Assembly: GCF_018866325.1 (NCBI RefSeq)
Contig: NZ_CP076457.1
Location: forward strand, 5,677,001 to 5,741,000
Direction of reading: 5' to 3'
Source of the DNA: Streptomyces sp. YPW6
GTDB lineage: Bacteria > Actinomycetota > Actinomycetes > Streptomycetales > Streptomycetaceae
Length of the DNA: 64,000 nt
The notes under the pieces were generated by a model. It was given only the letters and a program-made list of their open reading frames with translations. It did no database searches and was not told where the DNA came from. The position numbers and the translations under genes were made by a program. Position 1 is the first letter of the stretch, and every line of letters starts with the position of its first letter. Positions 1-10,662 of this stretch are shown here, in pieces.

Positions 1-113
1 CCAGGCCCTGCACGCCGGGACCAGGCCCTGCACGCCCGGATCAGGCTTACTACGCGCCGGAACCAGGCTCCGCACGCCCGGATCAGGCTTACTACGCGCC
101 GGAACCAGGCTCC
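1..113. repeat. Tandem repeat: 42-bp unit in two perfect copies plus related 20-bp units
   Basis: Positions 30-71 and 72-113 are identical 42-bp copies. They are preceded by two near-identical 20-bp units (1-20 and 21-40, one base different) that share the same cores (ccagg...cacgcc). The array continues to or beyond the left edge. It lies downstream of the stop of the minus-strand gene ending at 178. I see no coding signal in it. Confidence 0.85.
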
Positions 114-177
114 GCACCCTCGGATCAGGCCCGGCCACGTGCCTCGATCAGTCTCTCCTGTGCGCCTCGACCAGCAC

Positions 178-2444: not shown

Positions 2445-2629
2445 GGTGATCGATCCCCCAGTGCGTGCGGTGCGTGCCACCGGACGTCGTCGCCGGTGCA
2501 CTCAAACCGTATGCAGTCACAGCCCCCGGCGGGATACGGCCGACCACCGTCTCGGGGGTGGGGTTATCCCCCGGTCCCGAACGGTTTATGAGCAGGGCCC
2601 GGGTCCATGTACGCTGTTGCCTCATCCAC

Positions 2630-2704
2630 GGGTGCGTAGCTCAGGGGTAGAGCGCTGCTCTTACAAAGCAGATGTCGGCGGTTCGAAACCGTCCGCGCCC
2701 ACCA
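2630..2704 (+). tRNA. tRNA-Val (anticodon TAC)
   Basis: A full cloverleaf can be folded. The acceptor stem pairs GGGTGCG with CGCGCCC (one T.G pair), the D arm is GCTC/GAGC, and the anticodon stem is CTGCT/AGCAG around the loop CTTACAA (anticodon TAC). The T arm carries TTCGAAA, and the discriminator A is followed by an encoded CCA. The 3' half (2667-2705) is repeated exactly at 5093-5131, which marks this tRNA as the integration site of a mobile element. Confidence 0.96.
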
Positions 2705-2705
2705 G
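2667..2705. repeat. Attachment site copy (attL), 39-bp direct repeat in the tRNA 3' half
   Basis: This 39-bp segment runs from the 3' side of the anticodon stem through the T arm and CCA. It recurs without mismatch at 5093-5131. Duplication of a tRNA 3' end in the same orientation, with an integrase fragment just inside, is the standard signature of tRNA-targeted tyrosine-recombinase elements. Confidence 0.9.
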
Positions 2706-2708
2706 CAC

Positions 2709-2743
2709 AAAGACCCCCCAGCCGATCGTGGCTGGGGGTCTTT
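2709..2743 (+). terminator. Hairpin terminator after tRNA-Val
   Basis: The inverted repeat AAAGACCCCC / GGGGGTCTTT, extended by AGCC/GGCT, has a short loop and begins 5 nt after the tRNA CCA. It may serve both the tRNA and, in reverse, the integrase remnant. Confidence 0.8.
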
Positions 2744-2773
2744 GACATCCACCTCTGACTTCAACGGGCGCGG

Positions 2774-3256
2774 TCACCCACGGTCGGGCCGCTGCCGCCT
2801 CAGCATGCGGTCGAGGTGACTCACGGCCTCGCGCTGCGTGTCCTGGACGACGTGGGCGTAGATGTTCATCGTGACCGCGATCTGACTGTGCCCGAGGATC
2901 TCCATCACGACACGGGGAGCGACCCCGGCGGCGGTGAGCAGGGTCGCGCAGCCGTGGCGGGCATCATGCAGCCGGATGACGCGAAGCCCGGCGGTGCCGG
3001 CGACCCGGGTGAACGAGCGGTACAGGTTGCGCGGCTCGATCGGCCGGCCGGTGCGCGTGGTGAAGACGTAGCCGGTCTCCTCCCACTGATCACCGGCAGC
3101 CTCACGCAAGGCCGCTTGCCGCAGACGTTCCCAGCGCAGCGGTGCCACGCACAGGGCAGGCAGGGGAAGCGTCTGCTTCCTGCGACGCCCCTTGGGATCG
3201 TCCTCGTACGCCTCACCGCGTACACGCTGCCGCTGAGTGCGGACCTCATCAAGCCC
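2774..3256 (-). pseudogene. Tyrosine recombinase/integrase, C-terminal fragment
   Basis: The frame encodes about 160 residues ending with the catalytic end of a phage-type integrase. Visible signatures are the box II pattern HDARH (H-x-x-R-H), LGHS, and the Tyr of MNIYAHV, together with upstream linker features (PKGRRRKQTLPLP, GRPIEPRNLYRSF). Going upstream, the frame hits a stop at 3257-3259 before the N-terminal SAM-like domain and the box I Arg, so the protein is truncated by roughly half. The gene abuts the tRNA-Val attachment site, as expected for the integrase of this element. It is presumably inactive. Confidence 0.85.
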
Positions 3257-3754
3257 TCATGGGAGCAGGAGCGAACCCAACGCCACAAGGTCGCCTAGCT
3301 GTCGAGCCATGCAGAGTTGGTACAGGTTCTTCTACCTCATCGAGGGCGCGGACTGGCCCCCTTGTGCCCGGCCTTCTGTGCCTTCGGCACCCAGGCCGGG
3401 CCTATGGGCCGCAGCGAACTACGGCCCCTGAGTCGAGAACCAAGCCCGCGGCTTCAAGAGATGCCTCCGGCGGGGGCGCTCAGACTCCGGGATGGACGGG
3501 GCACCGTTCGCGAGTGCCGGCCGGAGCGGGGCGAGCGTCGTGGGGCTCCCATCCCGACCACCTTCGATCCAGGCAGAGCCGAGCGGTCGCGGCCCAGGGC
3601 GTCAAGGTCGTTCGTACAGTGGCGCGCTGCACCTTGACGCCCTGAACCACGACCGCTCCACGACGTGTGGGTCGAAGGCGGACGGGATGGAAGCCGGGTA
3701 AGTGGTGGGTGAGGCTAGGTGACCGGCCGCTAGGGTGCGAGGTGGGGTGATTGA
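3257..3754. other. No convincing gene inside the element remnant
   Basis: Frames in this stretch are short and show no recognisable product or ribosome-binding site. It probably contains debris of the missing integrase N-terminus and neighbouring element genes, but I can assign no fragment. Confidence 0.5.
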
Positions 3755-4096
3755 GTGCGCGGAAGTCTGCCGGTCGAAAATGCGGGGAATGTCCCGCTGT
3801 GCCTCTTTATCGAGCCGTACGGTGAGGACTTCTGGCTCGAACCGGGCGAGGCCGTCACCGTCTCACCGATGAGCGACCGCATCGACGCCCAGTTCGCGGT
3901 GTCTGTTGCGGCCGAGCTGGTGAGCGTGTGGCTCTACGAGGACGGCGACCCCAACAAGGTCATCTCGGACTCCCAGGTGATCGATGCGTCTGGTATCCCG
4001 TTGGAGTGTGGTCACCAGCGTCACGACCGGCGGATTCCCGGACCGTTCTGGCAGTCAGGTGTCAAGCCCGCTGCCTCTCCTGACATCAGCGCCTGA
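3755..4096 (+). CDS. Small conserved Streptomyces hypothetical protein (EPYGEDFW motif)
   Basis: 113 aa from GTG, preceded by a GGTGGGG ribosome-binding stretch. It contains LFIEPYGEDFWLEPGEAVTV near residue 20 and LECGHQR near residue 85. I recall this combination from a widespread family of small acidic Streptomyces proteins that often lie in accessory regions; function unknown. There is no signal peptide or membrane segment. The last 25 residues after the CGHQR motif look like non-conserved extension, so the original stop may have been lost. It is the only apparently intact gene of the element remnant. Confidence 0.65.
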   Translation: MRGSLPVENAGNVPLCLFIEPYGEDFWLEPGEAVTVSPMSDRIDAQFAVSVAAELVSVWLYEDGDPNKVISDSQVIDASGIPLECGHQRHDRRIPGPFWQSGVKPAASPDISA

Positions 4097-5092
4097 CACC
4101 AACAAGCGCGAACCGCATCGGTCAACGCCGAATCTCAGCGGCTCGGTAGCAGGCGCCCGGAGCGCGTTGAACGAGGCCGCAGAACTCCCGTGGACCTGAT
4201 AACGATGAGGCCAGACCTCAAAGCCGTGGAGTGTACGGGCGCCAGCAGCACCATCGGCCGGCCCCCGTGGCCTTTGCACGGTCATTGAGACCCAACCGCC
4301 CACGTGCCCATGCGTCCGAGGTGCGTGGTCGGCGCTGTCAGGTCTCACTCTTGGCCATCAACAGAGCCTGCGTCGCCGGTTAGGCCACGGACTGGATACC
4401 GGACCACCCCCAGGCAGACCAGGGATGCAGCTGCACTACAGAGCTGGATACCCCGGGTGCCGACCACGCGCCGCTGAGGCTACGCGTCCGCACTGACAAT
4501 CGAGACCAGATCTTGGCGGTACAGCAGAGAAGTACAGCAACCGCGCCGACCACTACTGGCCGTCGTTGCGCGTGGACGGCTGTCTGAGCAGGCGTGGAGG
4601 CCTCAGCGACCGCCTTGCCCATGGTTCGCATCGAGGTGCGGCTGTCTCGTATGCACAGCACCAGCCAAGCCAGGGGTGAGATCTTGGTAGCGAGCTGAGC
4701 TGAGCCCGGCACTGCTGCTGGGTTCCGCGCTGCTTGTGCCCGTGGCGTTTCTCTGTCGTTTGCCTCCTCGTCCAAACCGGGATTTTACGTCTGAGAGCGT
4801 GCGAGAGAGGGTGATGACTATGGGCGCTGCCTGGTTGGTTGCTAGCCGCAGCACGGTTGCTGGCATCTGCGAAGGGATGATTGGTGGGGTCCTCCTCACC
4901 TACCTGACGGGCGCAGCAGTGGTGGGCTGAGTCCAGCGCCCCGCTATCGGGTGACATGGAGCGCGGGCGGCCGGCGAGGGGTCTGACATCTATCACTGAC
5001 ATCAACAGCGGTGGACCTCGGCGGTCGTGCTCGGTCCTTCATGGAGCAGGCAGCTTGAGAGTGTGGGGCCGCGCGGCGCGCTGGCCGAACTT
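4097..5092. other. About 1 kb with no supported gene, end of the element remnant
   Basis: Third-position GC bias is weak and several overlapping frames on both strands of 60-150 codons look equally poor. None has a known domain or a clear ribosome-binding site. I see no repeats or RNA signature. The stretch ends at the second tRNA-Val 3'-end copy. Confidence 0.55.
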
Positions 5093-5131
5093 AGCAGATG
5101 TCGGCGGTTCGAAACCGTCCGCGCCCACCAG
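5093..5131. repeat. Attachment site copy (attR), 39-bp direct repeat
   Basis: This is an exact second copy of 2667-2705 (tRNA-Val 3' half including CCA and one following G). Only this half of the tRNA is present, so it cannot produce a tRNA. It marks the right end of the element. Confidence 0.9.
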
Positions 5132-5158
5132 GAGAAGGGCAGCCGAGAGCCTGTTCTC

Positions 5159-5190
5159 GACCCCCGGCCGTGATCGGCCGGGGGTCTTCT
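5159..5190. terminator. Hairpin terminator right of attR
   Basis: GACCCCCGGCCG / CGGCCGGGGGTC with a 4-nt loop is followed by a short T-rich stretch. Its position relative to attR mirrors that of the hairpin downstream of the intact tRNA. It could be the tRNA's original terminator displaced by integration, and it could also stop the minus-strand gene ending at 5225. Confidence 0.75.
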
Positions 5191-5224
5191 CGTGCCGGGT
5201 GTCCGCTGGAGTGCCCGGCGGTCG

Positions 5225-5743
5225 TCAGGTGGACTGCGAGCGGGTGTCGACGGCCCGGCCGGGAGCCGACGGACTGCCGTAGCCGGCGGCTGCCTGCCGC
5301 AGCTCGGTGTGGGTGCGGTGCGTACGCTGCCGCGCCGCTTCGAGCCGGGCCTCGGTCTCCGGCGTGTAGCGGCCGTTCTCCGGGACGCCCGGATCGATGT
5401 CGCTCAGATCCAGCGCACTCCAGGCCGCGCGCCCGGCGGCCCGGAGCAGGGTCTCGTCGGAGACGGCCAGGGCCAGCCGGTCCCGGGCCTCGGTCACATC
5501 ACTGCGGGCCTGGTAGAAGTCCGCCCGGACGACCGGGTCCGGCTCGCCCGCCCGGCGGGCGTCCACCCGGAGCCAGTACAACTGGCGGTAGCGGAGCGCG
5601 GCGCTCAGGAGCCGGCCGGTGAGATCCGCGACGTGCTCGCGGTGCTGCTCGCGCCGGCGGCGCCGGTCGGTCAGCTGCTGGGTGACCGTGACGAGGAGTC
5701 CGCCCGCCAGGGTGCCTATGACGGCGATGGCGCTTTCCCACAT
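5225..5743 (-). CDS. Membrane-anchored hypothetical protein, 172 aa
   Basis: The first 22 residues (MWESAIAVIGTLAGGLLVTVTQ) form one hydrophobic helix. A strongly basic RRRRREQHR stretch and about 140 mostly helical, charged residues follow. This fits a bitopic protein with a cytoplasmic coiled-coil-like tail. I recognise no named domain. The ATG overlaps the stop of a possible 22-codon frame just upstream (TGATG), which suggests translational coupling. It lies immediately outside the integrated element. Confidence 0.75.
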   Translation of the reverse strand: MWESAIAVIGTLAGGLLVTVTQQLTDRRRRREQHREHVADLTGRLLSAALRYRQLYWLRVDARRAGEPDPVVRADFYQARSDVTEARDRLALAVSDETLLRAAGRAAWSALDLSDIDPGVPENGRYTPETEARLEAARQRTHRTHTELRQAAAGYGSPSAPGRAVDTRSQST

Positions 5744-5811
5744 CAGGCGTGATCCCCGTCGGTCTCGCTTCGGTCGCGGTGGTCGGGCTCGAACAGATCG
5801 TCGTCGGTCAT
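5743..5811 (-). CDS. Possible 22-aa leader peptide translationally coupled to the next gene
   Basis: An ATG at 5811 opens a 22-codon frame (MTDDDLFEPDHRD..., very acidic) whose TGA overlaps the ATG of the membrane protein at 5743. A purine-rich AGAAGGGA lies about 11 nt upstream. The peptide is too short to judge by composition. The overlap and spacing favour it being translated; a chance frame is the main alternative. Confidence 0.4.
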   Translation of the reverse strand: MTDDDLFEPDHRDRSETDGDHA

Positions 5812-5961
5812 GGGGCTATCGTCCCTTCTGCCGTTGACCGTTGGAGGCTGATCCGCGCTTGTCCCGCCTGCGGGCTGCTTGCGTCGCATCCTCCATCCAG
5901 TCGCCCGCTGGGGCGGCTTGGCGGTGTTCGGGGCGAACAGCTGACTACGAGGGGGAAGTTG

Positions 5962-6618
5962 ATGGGGCAGATGCTGGCCGACATCTTGGACGGGGCGGCG
6001 CGCGGGCGGTTTCCGGAGACCGACGGCGGGACGACCGTGGTCGCCGCGCCGAGTGGCCGCGACACGGGGGTGATCGCCTTCACCGCGCACTCGGTCGTGT
6101 TCACCGACGAGGATCCCGAGTGGGTTCACGCGACGGCGGCCGCCCTGGACTGCGACGCGCTGGCCGCGACCATGCATCCGCGCTTCCTGGCGGCCTTCCT
6201 GGAACGCACCGGGCGGACCACGGACACGATCGACCTCCTGACCGTGGCGTCCTCGCTGCCCGGTCAACCCGGTCTGGAACTGCGGGAGGTCACCGATCCC
6301 GTGCACCCGCGGGTCGTACGTGCCCGTCGGCGCCGGGACGGGGTGCGGATGTGGGAGGCCGACGGGGGAGTGCTGGTGCTCGGGCGCGGGGTGGCCGGTC
6401 GCTGGGAGGTGGCCGTCGAGCTCGACGAGGACGCCCGGCACCGGGGGCTCGGGCGTGCCCTCGCCACCGCCGCGCGGCATCTCGTGCCCCCGGGCGAACC
6501 GCTCTGGTCGCAGCAGGCCGCGGGCAACGCACGCAGCATCCGGGCGTTCCAGGCCGCAGGATTCCGGCCGGTCGGCTCGGAGGCGCTGCTCCTCGGCCGT
6601 CAGGAGGAGGAGGCGTGA
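5962..6618 (+). CDS. GNAT-family N-acetyltransferase
   Basis: 218 aa from ATG with GGGGGAAG 6 nt upstream. The C-terminal half carries the acetyl-CoA-binding pattern of GNAT proteins (VAVELDEDARHRGLGRALATAA, motif A R-x-x-G-x-G/A, near residue 150) and the later SIRAFQAAGFRPVGSE segment. The N-terminal half resembles a regulatory or substrate-selecting arm. The substrate cannot be inferred. The stop overlaps the GTG of the following inositol-phosphatase-like gene by 4 bp (GTGA), so the two are one transcription unit and translationally coupled. Confidence 0.85.
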   Translation: MGQMLADILDGAARGRFPETDGGTTVVAAPSGRDTGVIAFTAHSVVFTDEDPEWVHATAAALDCDALAATMHPRFLAAFLERTGRTTDTIDLLTVASSLPGQPGLELREVTDPVHPRVVRARRRRDGVRMWEADGGVLVLGRGVAGRWEVAVELDEDARHRGLGRALATAARHLVPPGEPLWSQQAAGNARSIRAFQAAGFRPVGSEALLLGRQEEEA

Positions 6619-7430
6619 CCGGCTCTCCCGCGGAGCCGACGGACACCGAGGTCGCGGCGGCGGCCGCGCTGGCCGGGGCGGCGGTCGTGCGGGCCCGGTT
6701 CGGGCGGCTCCACTCCCGTGTCGACAAGGGCTTCGGAGACTTCGCCACCGACGCCGACCTGGCCGCCGAGCGGGCGATCCTCGACGTCATCCGCGCCGCC
6801 CGGCCCGGGGACGCGGTGCACGGCGAGGAGGGCGGCCGGCAGGGGGCGGCCGACGCGGAGCGGGAGTGGCTGGTGGACCCCCTGTGCGGGACGCTCAACT
6901 ACGCCACCGGCTCCCGGCTCGTCGCCGTCAACGTGGTGCTGCGCGGCGGCCCGGCCGCGGTGGCCGATCCGTTCAGCGGCGAGGTCTTCGTCACCGACGG
7001 GGAGACCGCCCGGCTCCGGTCCGGTGCGGAGGCCGGCGAGCGGCGGTTGGCGCCCACGGCGGACACCCGGCTCGTGGACGTGAACCTCGATCCGCCCTTC
7101 CCGAACGCGCCCGGCTTCCGGGCCGTCGACCTGCTCGCCCACCCCGGCTTCGTCCAGAACTTCCGCCCGCGCGTCGTCTCCACGACGCTGGCGCTCGCCT
7201 GGGTCGCGGCGGGCAGGCGGGCCGCCTACGTCACGGACGGCGGCGATCTGAGCGGGAGCGTGCACTTCGCCGCCGGGATCGCCCTGTGCCGCGCCGCCGG
7301 CTGCGTCGTCACCGGGGTCGACGGAGCTCCTGTCGGACCGGGCGGCGGCCGGGGGCTCGTCGCGGCTGCGGACACCGGGACCCACGAGCTGCTCATGTCG
7401 ATGACCGGCGGTCGCGGCCGGACCGACTGA
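6615..7430 (+). CDS. Inositol monophosphatase-family protein with altered metal ligands
   Basis: 271 aa. The IMPase fold is recognisable from GDFATDADLAAE, HGEEGG (the metal-binding Glu near residues 71-72), WLVDPLCGTLNY (usual pattern D-P-x-D-G-T-x-N-F) and the C-terminal AAG helix. The second Asp of the DPxDGT motif is Cys91 here. The usual W-D-x-A-A-G reads V-H-F-A-A-G, so its Asp is His. Two of the canonical metal-ligand Asp residues are therefore missing while Glu71/72 and Asp88 remain. The protein may be catalytically weak or may have another role. It is coupled to the upstream acetyltransferase. Confidence 0.8.
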   Translation: MTGSPAEPTDTEVAAAAALAGAAVVRARFGRLHSRVDKGFGDFATDADLAAERAILDVIRAARPGDAVHGEEGGRQGAADAEREWLVDPLCGTLNYATGSRLVAVNVVLRGGPAAVADPFSGEVFVTDGETARLRSGAEAGERRLAPTADTRLVDVNLDPPFPNAPGFRAVDLLAHPGFVQNFRPRVVSTTLALAWVAAGRRAAYVTDGGDLSGSVHFAAGIALCRAAGCVVTGVDGAPVGPGGGRGLVAAADTGTHELLMSMTGGRGRTD

Positions 7431-7435
7431 ACCCC

Positions 7436-8059
7436 TCAGACGCGGAGTTCGGGCGGGAAGCCGGTCCAGCGGAGCTCGGCGGGCAGATGACCGGTGTCGT
7501 TGAACAGGAGCAGCGCCGGCGGACGGCCCGGCGCGTAACGGATCACCGTCAGCGCCGCGTTGGCGTGGTTGAGGCCCAGCCAGCGCCACTTCGGGGCGTC
7601 CAGCGCGGCCCGGACGAGCCAGCCGACGAGGAAGTTGTGCGTGACGAGGAGTTCATGGCGGGGCTCGTCGCCCTCGACCGTTCCCGTGAAGCGTGCCAGC
7701 GCCTCCTGAGCGAGCCCCGGGCCCAGCTCGCGCTCCGCCGCCGGGAATGCGGCCAGCCGCGCCAGGGTCTCGTCGGCCGACTCCACCGGCAGCTCCTCCC
7801 GTGACGGCAGGTACGGGAGGTAGTCACCGGCAGGTTCGGACCGCAGCAGAGGAACTCCCGGCAGTTGCTCGCCCACCAGCCGGGCCGTCTGCTCGGCGCG
7901 GGCGAGCGGGCCGTGGTGGATCGCCGTGACCGGTGCCCCGCGCAGCCGCTCGCCGAGCAGGGTGGCCTGGCGGCGGCCGGCGTCCGTCAGCGTGGACTCG
8001 TCGTCGGAGGCCTGGCCGTGCCGGGTCACGTACAGGTAGCGGGCAGCCGATGCCGTCAT
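7436..8059 (-). CDS. Histidine phosphatase (phosphoglycerate-mutase-like) family protein
   Basis: 207 aa from ATG. The catalytic RHG triad is at the N-terminus (YVTRHGQAS), followed by LTDAGRRQA, the second Arg region GPLARAEQTA, a Glu-containing loop (EELPVES) and the distal His in LLVTHNFLVGWLV. These are the standard residues of the branch-2-like histidine phosphatase superfamily. The substrate is not predictable. It is convergent with the preceding gene, with only 5 bp between stops. Confidence 0.88.
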   Translation of the reverse strand: MTASAARYLYVTRHGQASDDESTLTDAGRRQATLLGERLRGAPVTAIHHGPLARAEQTARLVGEQLPGVPLLRSEPAGDYLPYLPSREELPVESADETLARLAAFPAAERELGPGLAQEALARFTGTVEGDEPRHELLVTHNFLVGWLVRAALDAPKWRWLGLNHANAALTVIRYAPGRPPALLLFNDTGHLPAELRWTGFPPELRV

Positions 8060-8243
8060 GGGCGGGTCCTCCGTAGCGGTTCATGATCGTGGAGACGCCT
8101 TGGGGGACGTCGGGCCGTGCCCGGGCGGTTCCGAGGGGGAAGGGCGAAGCGCCCCGGGACCTGATGCGCTGGGCCTGCCCCGGACGTGCGCGCGGCCGGT
8201 CTCCCGGGATGCGCGGGGGCGGCGCCCGGGGCACCGTGGAGGC

Positions 8244-8462
8244 ATGGCCGAGCACCCGCCCGTGATCGTCTATCCGCCTTCCGCGACCGGAGGACGGCGG
8301 GTCACCGTGCACGGCCAGATCGTGGGCCTGGCGCACGGGCGGGGTGAGGTGGCCGCGCTGCTGCGGGCCGCGGGCTTCGCCCCCGGGCCCGACCAGAGCG
8401 TCGAGCTGGACCGGCCCGGACTGATCGAATGGCGCGGCGGCGACCTCGACACCTGGGGGTGA
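8244..8462 (+). CDS. Small hypothetical protein, 72 aa
   Basis: It begins MAEHPPVIVYPPS and is preceded by GTGGAGG, a good ribosome-binding site. The composition is typical of Streptomyces coding sequence, with YPPSATGGRRVTVHGQIVGLAHG suggesting a small beta-rich protein. I recall similar short proteins in other Streptomyces but cannot name a family. Its stop is 4 bp before the GTG of the next gene, with which it probably forms an operon. Confidence 0.7.
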   Translation: MAEHPPVIVYPPSATGGRRVTVHGQIVGLAHGRGEVAALLRAAGFAPGPDQSVELDRPGLIEWRGGDLDTWG

Positions 8463-8466
8463 TCCC

Positions 8467-8820
8467 GTGAAGCGTCGTCGAACGGTACGGGAGAGCGCGT
8501 CGATCGAACCGCCGCCCGGCTACTACCTCGCCGGGGACGCCGGGCGCGAGCCTCCCGGCGCCGCGCAGCGGGCACTGATCCTGGACTGGGTCGTGAGCCG
8601 CCGCATCGCGGGCGGCTGGCGCGTCGAGTCCCGCTCCGGGAGCCAGGTGGTGCTGGTGCGCGGGCAGCCGGTGAACCACGTGCTGCACGCCTTCCTCACC
8701 GTCTTCTCCTGTCTGGTCTGGGGCGTCGTGTGGGCCGGCCTCGCTTTGCTCAACCGCGTCGAGCGGGAGGCACTCACCGTCGACGCCCAGGGGCGCGTCG
8801 TCACGGTCCGTGCGCCCTGA
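8467..8820 (+). CDS. Small membrane hypothetical protein, 117 aa
   Basis: GTG start preceded by GGGGGTGA. The N-terminal half is polar (PPPGYYLAGDAG...), followed by one transmembrane helix around residues 72-95 (LHAFLTVFSCLVWGVVWAGL) and a short basic/acidic end. The middle segment (SRRIAGGWRVESRSGSQVVLVRG) resembles proteins that bind or shield the membrane surface. Function unknown. It follows the 72-aa gene by 4 bp. Confidence 0.72.
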   Translation: MKRRRTVRESASIEPPPGYYLAGDAGREPPGAAQRALILDWVVSRRIAGGWRVESRSGSQVVLVRGQPVNHVLHAFLTVFSCLVWGVVWAGLALLNRVEREALTVDAQGRVVTVRAP

Positions 8821-8995
8821 CTCGGGCCCCCGGCTCCCGGCCCCTTCACCCGAACGGGTGCCTTCCGCTGGCTGCGCCCGGAGGCCGCGAGGAACGTCGG
8901 AGCTGATCCGCCCGCACGACCGGGGCAGGTCAGGGCAGCAGGCGCCCGGCCTCCGTACCGGCTGGACCGGTGCCTGCTCCGGACAAGGAGTCCTC

Positions 8996-9466
8996 ATGTC
9001 GCAGTCCACCACACCCCCGCCCCCACCCGGCGCCTCGCGCCCCGCCGAACCCCGTCCGGGCGGCGATCCCGGCAGCCCGTGGGCGGCCGGGGGAGCGGTG
9101 TTCGCCGGTGTCCTGCTCTTCGTGGACGGCGTCCTCGGAGTGATGAAGGGCATCGCGGGGATCGCCTCGAACGACATCTACACCCGGATCAACGACTACG
9201 TCTTCAAGTTCAGCGTCACCTCGTGGGGCTGGATCCACCTCGTCCTCGGCGTGATCCTCATCCTCGTGGGCTGGGGCATCCTCAGGGGAGCGGCCTGGGC
9301 CCGCGGTGCGGGCGTCGCGCTCGCCTCCCTGAACCTCATCGCCAACTTCATGTGGCTCCCGTACACCCCGGTCTGGGCCATCGTCACCATCGCGATCGAC
9401 GTCTTCGTCATCTGGGCCCTGTGCACCGACCGGTCGAACGAGGACCACTGGGCCAGGAGCGGCTGA
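8996..9466 (+). CDS. DUF7144-type four-helix membrane protein
   Basis: 156 aa from ATG with AAGGAG 7 nt upstream. After a Pro-rich cytoplasmic start there are four hydrophobic helices (about residues 30-50, 75-95, 103-125 and 128-145). They include GGAVFAGVLLFVDGVLGV, ISWGWIHLVLG-like and GRGA-like turns that I associate with the DUF7144 family of small actinobacterial membrane proteins. No function is known. A strong hairpin follows. Confidence 0.78.
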   Translation: MSQSTTPPPPPGASRPAEPRPGGDPGSPWAAGGAVFAGVLLFVDGVLGVMKGIAGIASNDIYTRINDYVFKFSVTSWGWIHLVLGVILILVGWGILRGAAWARGAGVALASLNLIANFMWLPYTPVWAIVTIAIDVFVIWALCTDRSNEDHWARSG

Positions 9467-9489
9467 GCGCCCGGTACGTGGAGCCGTCC

Positions 9490-9521
9490 TGTCCCGTCCC
9501 GCCGTCCGGCGGGGCGGGACA
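9490..9521 (+). terminator. Hairpin terminator
   Basis: TGTCCCGTCCCGCC pairs with GGCGGGGCGGGACA across a GTCC loop, 24 bp after the stop of the DUF7144 gene. There is no U-tract, as is common in Streptomyces. Confidence 0.75.
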
Positions 9522-9638
9522 GTGCGTGGGGAGGGGCCGGCCGCCGGATGGCGGTGCGTGGGGAGCGGCAGGCCGCCGAGCGGCAGCGCAGGGAGCGGCC
9601 GGGTGTCCGTTGTCAGTGGGGCGGTCCACACTGGAGTC

Positions 9639-9863
9639 ATGTGCCGCAGCATCAAGACGCTCCGCCCGCCCGCCCTCCCCGAAGAGGCCACCGAGGAGGA
9701 CATGCGGGCCGCCGCCCTTCAGTACGTACGCAAGGTCTCCGGGTTCCGCGCACCCGCCGCGCACAACCGGGAGGTGTTCGACCGGGCCGTCGACGAGATC
9801 ACCGCAGCGACGATGAAGCTGCTCGACGGGCTGGAGATACGGGGGACGTCGCGGGGCGCTTGA
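9639..9863 (+). CDS. DUF2277 family protein
   Basis: 74 aa starting MCRSIKTLRPP, the characteristic opening of DUF2277 proteins, followed by EEATEEDMRAAALQYVRKVSG and RAVDEIT. These proteins are small, soluble and of unknown function. The 3' end overlaps the 3' end of the convergent DedA-family gene by 65 bp (9799-9863), so the two transcripts are mutually antisense there. Confidence 0.87.
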   Translation: MCRSIKTLRPPALPEEATEEDMRAAALQYVRKVSGFRAPAAHNREVFDRAVDEITAATMKLLDGLEIRGTSRGA

Positions 9864-10464
9864 CCACGAACGCGGCCAAGGCGCCCGCCGCGAACAGCGC
9901 CAGCACCGAGACGGCCGTGCCGAACCACGTCGAGCCCAGCCACCGGCCGCCGAAGTAGCCGAGGCCGACGCTGTACCCGGCCCAGGCCAGGCCCGCCAGC
10001 GCGGACCAGGGGAGGAAGTCGCGCTTCCTGCGGTGGGCGGCGCCCGCGCCGAGGGAGACCACGGAGCGGCCTGCCGGGGCGAACCGGGCGATGATCACCA
10101 GCGCGCCGCCGCCCCGGCTCAGTGCCGCGCCGAGACGTTCCTGCGCGGTGGTCAGGCGACGGGAACGGGCGATGGCCCGGTCCAGCCGGTCGCCCCCGCG
10201 CCAGGCGAGCCGGTAGGCGACGAGGTCGCCGAGCACCGACGCGGTGGCCGCGCAGAGGATCAGGACGACGAGCGAGGGGACCTGTCCGCCCGTGCCGTCA
10301 CCGGAGCCGTTGACGGTCGTGGAGCCGGCTGCCGCCGCCGTGGCGGCCGTGATGACGAGAACACCGCTGGGCAGGAGGGGCAGGAAGACGTCCAGGAGGA
10401 CGGAGACGGCGACCACCACGTAGATCCATGGGCTGCTGGTCAGCGCGGCCACACTCTCCAACAC
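9799..10464 (-). CDS. DedA-family (SNARE-associated/VTT domain) membrane protein
   Basis: 221 aa from GTG with GGGGAG 9 nt upstream. It has several transmembrane helices and the DedA/VTT features: an N-terminal SGVLVITAATAAAAG segment, a central ATASVLGDLVAYRLAWRGG with GDRLDR, the R-F-x-P-x-x-R-S loop (RFAPAGRSVVSLGAGAA) and a C-terminal WAGYSVGLGYFGG helix. DedA proteins are phospholipid scramblases/flippases or undecaprenyl-phosphate translocases; which applies here cannot be told. The tail overlaps DUF2277. Confidence 0.88.
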   Translation of the reverse strand: MLESVAALTSSPWIYVVVAVSVLLDVFLPLLPSGVLVITAATAAAAGSTTVNGSGDGTGGQVPSLVVLILCAATASVLGDLVAYRLAWRGGDRLDRAIARSRRLTTAQERLGAALSRGGGALVIIARFAPAGRSVVSLGAGAAHRRKRDFLPWSALAGLAWAGYSVGLGYFGGRWLGSTWFGTAVSVLALFAAGALAAFVVKRPATSPVSPARRAASSSLR

Positions 10465-10662
10465 CGTCTGATACTCCCCGGTCGTGTCATCGCCGCGACG
10501 GTCGCAGGGGAGCGGCAGGGGCGGCAGGTTCGGCTGTACAGCGTACGCGTGGGGCTTCTCCCGACATCGCCCGGGGCGGGTGATGTTGTGCAGGTCACGT
10601 ACACCTGGCGGCCATGCGCCCGTTAGGCGGGGAGAGCGACCGGCACGAGCGAGGAGCAGCGC

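Follow-up and report, generated by a model that had tools for sequence, protein, structure and literature searches.

Remnant of a RepSA-type AICE in tRNA-Val(TAC) of Streptomyces sp. YPW6 with a nested tRNA-Ile-type end and a conserved hairpin

The segment 2660–5131 of the window (the whole stretch of 64,000 nucleotides analysed here, positions 5,677,001 to 5,741,000 of contig NZ_CP076457.1) can with high confidence be regarded as the remnant of a RepSA-type AICE (actinomycete integrative and conjugative element) residing in a tRNA-Val(TAC) gene. It is a mosaic that encloses the end of a tRNA-Ile AICE, has a large internal deletion, keeps its attL and carries a decaying attR. This reading is based on homology, gene loss, the empty site of a relative, the repeats, arm-type words, the hairpin and the nested tRNA-Ile end. 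The features of the region are:

2630–2704, plus strand: tRNA-Val(TAC), the target gene (ARAGORN; Rfam tRNA, 67.2 bits), its 3' part forming the attL core
2660–2705, plus strand: attL core of 46 nt, a length repeated by complete elements
2709–2743, plus strand: terminator-like hairpin, recognised by sequence and similar to a hairpin in other elements; putative function
2743–2762, plus strand: left pair of arm words, TGACATC (2743) and its one-base variant TGACTTC (2756); putative arm sites
2774–3246, minus strand: C-terminal fragment of a tyrosine recombinase, residues ~230–385, start missing (PF00589, E 7.5e-17)
3246–3247: deletion junction, where the integrase is joined to the distal part of the element
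3431–3716, plus strand: conserved non-coding module
3541–3700, plus strand: long hairpin of ~160 bp within the module; candidate single-strand origin
3755–4096, plus strand: putative open reading frame of 113 aa with no Pfam match, its DNA 80% alike in G049
4081–4238, plus strand: decayed right end of a tRNA-Ile(GAT)-type AICE, with arm words at 4081 and 4094 and the remnant of an attR core from 4196
4984–5003, plus strand: right pair of arm words, TGACATC at 4984 and 4997
5090–5131, plus strand: attR core of 42 nt, with a 4-nt deletion in the anticodon-loop part

The first-pass annotation had described an exact 39-bp repeat of the tRNA 3' half 2.4 kb away, and the longest exact repeat is indeed 39 bp (2667–2705 and 5093–5131, spacing 2,426 bp). 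A 74-base query including it found two places only in the genome of 7,695,589 bp, the second copy with E 1.6e-13. The accompanying statement that both attachment sites are clean has to be corrected, since attR has lost 4 nt and one of the four arm words is substituted. Direct repeats of elements at tRNA-Val(TAC) in other genomes are 45–46 nt long and start at tRNA position 31. Compared with its own 46-nt attL, the attR of the window changes from CTTACAAAGCAG to CTTAGCAG, and the same 4-nt deletion distinguishes its CCGAACTTAGCAG from CCGAACTTACAAAGCAG in L163, L164 and L040. Thus the repeats are exact over 39 nt, but the full-length att is not intact. The attL core is preserved because it is part of the tRNA gene itself; attR is free to decay, and 4 nt are gone already. 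GC content between the cores (2706–5092) is 66.3% versus 72.7% for the whole window. The terminator-like hairpin just inside attL would be common to the ends of the tRNA and integrase genes and seems to be element-borne.

TGACATC occurs in pairs with a spacing of 13 bp close to either end of the element, the chance expectation for the exact word being 0.26 in 2,388 bp. All eight other elements inspected have it at +38 and/or +51 from the left att, and seven of the eight at −107 and/or −94 from the right one (−116 and −103 in L046). Offsets in the window are +39 on the left, plus the variant at 2756, and −109 and −96 on the right, so three of the four words are exact and the fourth has one substitution. 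Judged by these positions, the pairs are putative arm-type sites of the integrase. A similar 7-mer, TGACACC, is given in PMC3583192 as a TraA-bound clt repeat of pWTY27, and this resemblance makes a role in transfer possible for the arm words.

The integrase fragment, placed about 70 bp from attL by the first-pass annotation, has its stop codon at 2774, which leaves 69 bp to the repeat; in the closest loci the distance between integrase and att copy is 72 bp. When genome contigs were scanned for the 124-aa fragment, 316 matching stretches were confirmed, and the 80 best of them make up 79 loci. Identity to the top nine loci among these best 80 of 316 is 94–97%; eight of the nine have an integrase that is complete before the tRNA-Val sequence, and in L039 it is truncated. 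That locus holds a 6.1-kb tRNA-Val element (4354–10488) whose cargo comprises one gene for a GmrSD-type restriction endonuclease and one for a NERD-domain protein. The proposed comparison of the same tRNA across Streptomyces did yield full-length elements. For instance, L040 (Streptomyces sp. CB02058) has a complete one between two att copies, with Pfam assignments of NERD, GntR/UTRA regulator, FtsK/SpoIIIE, DUF2637, RepSA (E 2e-153), excisionase-like HTH_17 and integrase, and in L163 (genome G082) the tRNA is accompanied by matches to this set of proteins and by an att copy 13.3 kb further on. Window DNA matches L163 up to its position 3615 (integrase; 95%) and again from 12992 (81%), which indicates that ~9.4 kb is missing. 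When a panel of 12 proteins was compared with 2600–5200 at E < 0.1, two integrases were the sole matches, and RepSA, TraB and Xis gave none.

The same locus is empty in G287, where the flanks are collinear with those of the window (93% identity on the left, 89% on the right). Matches to the right flank at E 1e-30 exist in 4 of 392 genomes, the window's own counted. The nearest of them by this flank, G203 (92%), also has a gutted integrase and an altered attR, but its junction retains ~20 additional bases of the integrase and continues with sequence just upstream of the hairpin. A deletion shared by G203 and the window is thereby ruled out; elements were gutted more than once in this group, and the history of the window element cannot be read from G203. 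The genomes searched did not include a strain with precisely this element in undeleted form. A phage origin was also considered and dropped, as the phage collection gave no match at E 1e-5.

The notion of a degraded integrative element at tRNA-Val is therefore borne out by intact elements at the same tRNA, the empty site of G287 and the integrase C-terminus next to attL. It would fail if the 3' half of the tRNA had simply been duplicated and the integrase fragment beside it were unrelated, and the first-pass annotation had named repeats in strains lacking any integrase as the sign of this. Such cases do exist: in 5 of the 17 surveyed genomes where att occurs twice, the panel detects no integrase. 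At this locus, however, simple duplication is ruled out by the empty site together with the AICE content, in which integrase, arm-type words and right end are arranged as in complete elements and the hairpin is present, and we consider this explanation extremely improbable.

For the AICE remnant, the probable order of events would begin with insertion by tyrosine recombination into the 3' half of tRNA-Val(TAC), Int presumably being the inserter, so that the end of the tRNA is rebuilt. The incoming AICE would already have been a mosaic, with the right end of a tRNA-Ile-specific AICE and its decayed attachment core inside. A large internal deletion would then have removed integrase residues 1–229, xis, repSA, DUF2637 and traB and brought codon ~230 of the integrase next to the distal, attR-proximal part. 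Thereafter attL would be held by the tRNA gene and attR, free to decay, would lose its 4 nt. Deletions with similar endpoints may recur, as 8 of 15 junctions in truncated tRNA-Val integrases lie between residues 213 and 247. This hand count takes repeat loci once, omits L030, L166 and the second copy of L057, includes two junctions from one locus and refers to loci partly chosen via the C-terminal fragment, with matches below 60% identity filtered out and the interval set afterwards; the clustering is a lead only. L048 contains tandem tRNA-Val att copies (5368–10405 in reverse-complement coordinates), and the integrase behind each of them breaks off at residue 247.

Could the remnant still move as a small non-autonomous, CIME-like passenger served in trans by the integrase and replication functions of a related AICE? 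Thirty-nine of the 46 core nucleotides are identical, three of the four arm words are exact, other small att-flanked remnants are hosted by tRNA-Val as well, and helper mobilisation of defective AICEs is discussed in PMC9513070. We nevertheless regard continued mobility as unlikely: the attR core is short by 4 nt, G203 has an altered attR as well, and the next best integrases of the own genome are distant (36% and 31% identity). The 4-nt deletion and the arm-word substitution make the ability to excise doubtful, and a related Int in trans would at best excise the remnant poorly. The single RepSA match of the genome lies at 3.68 Mb, outside the remnant, and adjoins an integrase of 26% identity (G000:C1:3681362–3683981); the two probably belong to a second, unrelated AICE that has no hairpin of the kind described below.

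Among known classes, a functional AICE combines an integrase, a replication initiator and an FtsK/TraB transfer gene, and 2600–5200 retains only the integrase C-terminus. AICE homology at the same tRNA between att copies makes the segment an AICE remnant. It also has the structure of a CIME, being att-flanked with no functional integrase or transfer genes, its attR carrying the deletion. DAICEs, defined in PMC9513070 by retained traB with rep and/or int missing, are likewise gutted AICEs between direct repeats at tRNA genes, but they have traB, and TraB is absent here at E < 0.1. The traB-less element trace at tRNA-Arg from that paper is a nearer match. AICE03, described there in tRNA-Val of Streptomyces S1A1-7 and S1D4-23, is similar in its AICE family and in its 46-nt repeats, equal in length to the attL core, but it is complete; the likeness is one of description and does not imply the same integrase or tRNA isoacceptor. 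TR1, a CIME of plant-associated Streptomyces, is att-flanked and dependent on another element, too. Its mobilisation is reported as shown in PMC8369830, whereas that of the window remnant is hypothetical, and its attR is damaged.

The suggestion that tRNA-Val(TAC) is a recombination hotspot is supported. We surveyed 46 Streptomyces genomes, hand-picked for a good tRNA match and ≤10 contigs (at least two eligible ones, G224 and G280, were omitted), over 17 kb downstream of the tRNA and with integrases recognised by similarity to the panel. A second att copy and/or an integrase was found in 21 genomes and neither in 25, the latter group including L133, scored as empty despite a possible AICE ~72 kb further on. 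A second att copy was present within 17 kb in 17 of the 46, an integrase no more than about 2 kb from the tRNA in 16, and integrase, Rep and Tra together in six. The equal length of the contigs of L054 and L133 suggests that an AICE with tRNA-Val att repeats lies ~72 kb downstream of the tRNA, and a large island may occupy the space between. Of the 79 loci obtained from the best 80 of 316 stretches, 38 have a tRNA-Val match, in part incomplete, and nine have two att copies; in five of these nine (L039, L040, L048, L054 and L055) neither copy is a whole tRNA, a pattern like that of tandem arrays. Accretion of elements at tRNA-Arg and defective elements are reported in PMC9513070.

The interior of the remnant bears the trace of another target gene. 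Positions 4060–4230 are similar to right ends of AICEs in tRNA-Ile(GAT). Two arm words precede a perfect tRNA-Ile core by 117–118 and 104–105 bp in L229 and L219 (one word in L236), and in the window they precede the decayed core at 4196 by 115 and 102 bp. Eighteen of the first 20 bases of this core match, the next best site in the 64 kb reaching 14, and elsewhere in the genome the tRNA-Ile core (≤3 mismatches) occurs only at 3.81 Mb, 1.9 Mb away. The nested core recurs, with 2 substitutions, in the tRNA-Val locus L048. Most likely, an int-att module for tRNA-Ile was swapped for a tRNA-Val one, or two AICEs recombined; integrase switching, proposed in PMC9513070, fits a module swap. The adjacent 4240–4980 (about 740 bp) gives scattered matches only. 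Within it, segments of 120–190 bp from 4316–4650 recur at 72–85% identity in many Streptomyces genomes, one of them also at 3.40 Mb of the own genome. Three tandem copies of 42 nt occupy the edge of the window (1–133).

The module 3431–3716 has 35 copies of at least 180 bases in the compared loci, the window itself accounting for two, and is also present in pMR2 and other plasmid records, where no feature or annotation lies under the hairpin in the incomplete gene table. Folded as single-stranded DNA, the hairpin outdoes all 200 shuffled versions, whichever strand is taken (z −4.2 and −5.6). On an alignment of 33 sequences (A2, with L167, L034 and L038 omitted) 49 pairs are predicted and 97.8% of cells pair, with changes on both sides at 15 of the 49; none of 500 shuffles reached 97.8% or 15, although the structure was derived from the very alignment on which it is scored. 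Slid structures on A2 pair only 32–41%, and the number of additional pair types stands out less, 34 of 500 shuffles reaching it. After exclusion of three mainly-G-T pairs, the remaining 46 contain 1,485 Watson-Crick, 5 G-T and 27 other cells, and this rarity of G-T suits selection on DNA over RNA. Conversion between the arms could contribute to the pairing pattern. Selection to keep the hairpin in remnants found no support, as just two of 12 compared tRNA-Val loci (L116 and L164) match the window there.

With a covariance model of the hairpin, matches at E ≤ 1e-5 were obtained in 82 of 150 Streptomyces genomes. Forty low-contig genomes contain 39 hairpin loci and 68 RepSA loci, palindrome strands and split RepSA matches having been merged by hand. 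RepSA lies within 15 kb at 23 of the 39 (random placement: mean 0.27, maximum 3), always on one side, 3.1–10.5 kb off and on the opposite strand (23/23). The same arrangement was registered in 17 of 20 regions around strong model matches, seven of whose genomes are also among the 40; L237 and L238 have no RepSA and L225 is cut by a contig end. Conversely, the hairpin is not a constant component of RepSA replication, since RepSA is missing within 15 kb of 16 of the 39 hairpins and only 22 of the 68 RepSA loci carry one. Four of the 65 strongest Prim-Pol loci among the matches listed also lie within 15 kb of a hairpin.

Strong intramolecular structure kept by compensatory change, and a single orientation to a rolling-circle gene wherever RepSA is near, are what one expects of a single-strand origin, and we infer that 3541–3700 is a candidate for this function with a predicted priming role. 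Of ten plasmids scanned for the loop only two have it: a 9.9-kb circular plasmid of S. longwoodensis NBC 00630 (unnamed5), where it is exact on an unrelated long stem, and pMR2 of Micromonospora rosaria, with 3 differences. In both, rep is on the opposite strand and no feature of the gene table lies at the loop. The sso (sti) of pIJ101 (PMC4170104) is similar in the role proposed for the hairpin, but the loop motif did not exceed shuffled levels there, nor in pSN22, pJV1, pSNA1, pSVH1 and three further plasmids. With slightly less than even confidence we propose both that the hairpin is a member of a so far undescribed family of single-strand origins (or of other cis sites that act as ssDNA), common to Streptomyces AICEs of differing integrases and target tRNAs, the Micromonospora AICE pMR2 and the free circular S. 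longwoodensis plasmid, and that the remnant records a switch of integrase and att from tRNA-Ile to tRNA-Val.

It is a serious possibility, though one we would place below even, that the hairpin is instead a transfer site (clt), a structured RNA or a terminator. Its incomplete association with RepSA and the few Prim-Pol neighbours leave room for this, and clt sites, according to PMC3583192, also lie in non-coding DNA and may have inverted repeats. However, the conserved loop shows, on reading of the alignment, none of the tandem short direct repeats of clt, the same loop sits on an unrelated stem in the circular plasmid, and an RNA would fit poorly with the paucity of G-T cells. A search for a known RNA was equally negative: no Rfam family attained its gathering score, and we regard the sub-threshold miRNA matches (the best with 39.9 bits against a cut-off of 97) as accidental fits to a long hairpin. 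Full-text searches of open papers brought up no description of the hairpin; most subscription papers lay outside their scope, so it may have been described earlier, for instance in the pSAM2 replication papers cited in PMC3218068.

Gutted AICEs at tRNA genes are ordinary and expected. The present locus is a further example, at tRNA-Val, for which we give the deletion junction, a relative with the empty site and a survey of how often the site is occupied. The hairpin and the nested tRNA-Ile end deserve more attention than the remnant itself. The nested attachment end is direct sequence evidence that AICEs switch target genes and retain other parts. Should the covarying hairpin with its single orientation to repSA prove to be a single-strand origin, AICE biology would gain a cis-element open to testing.
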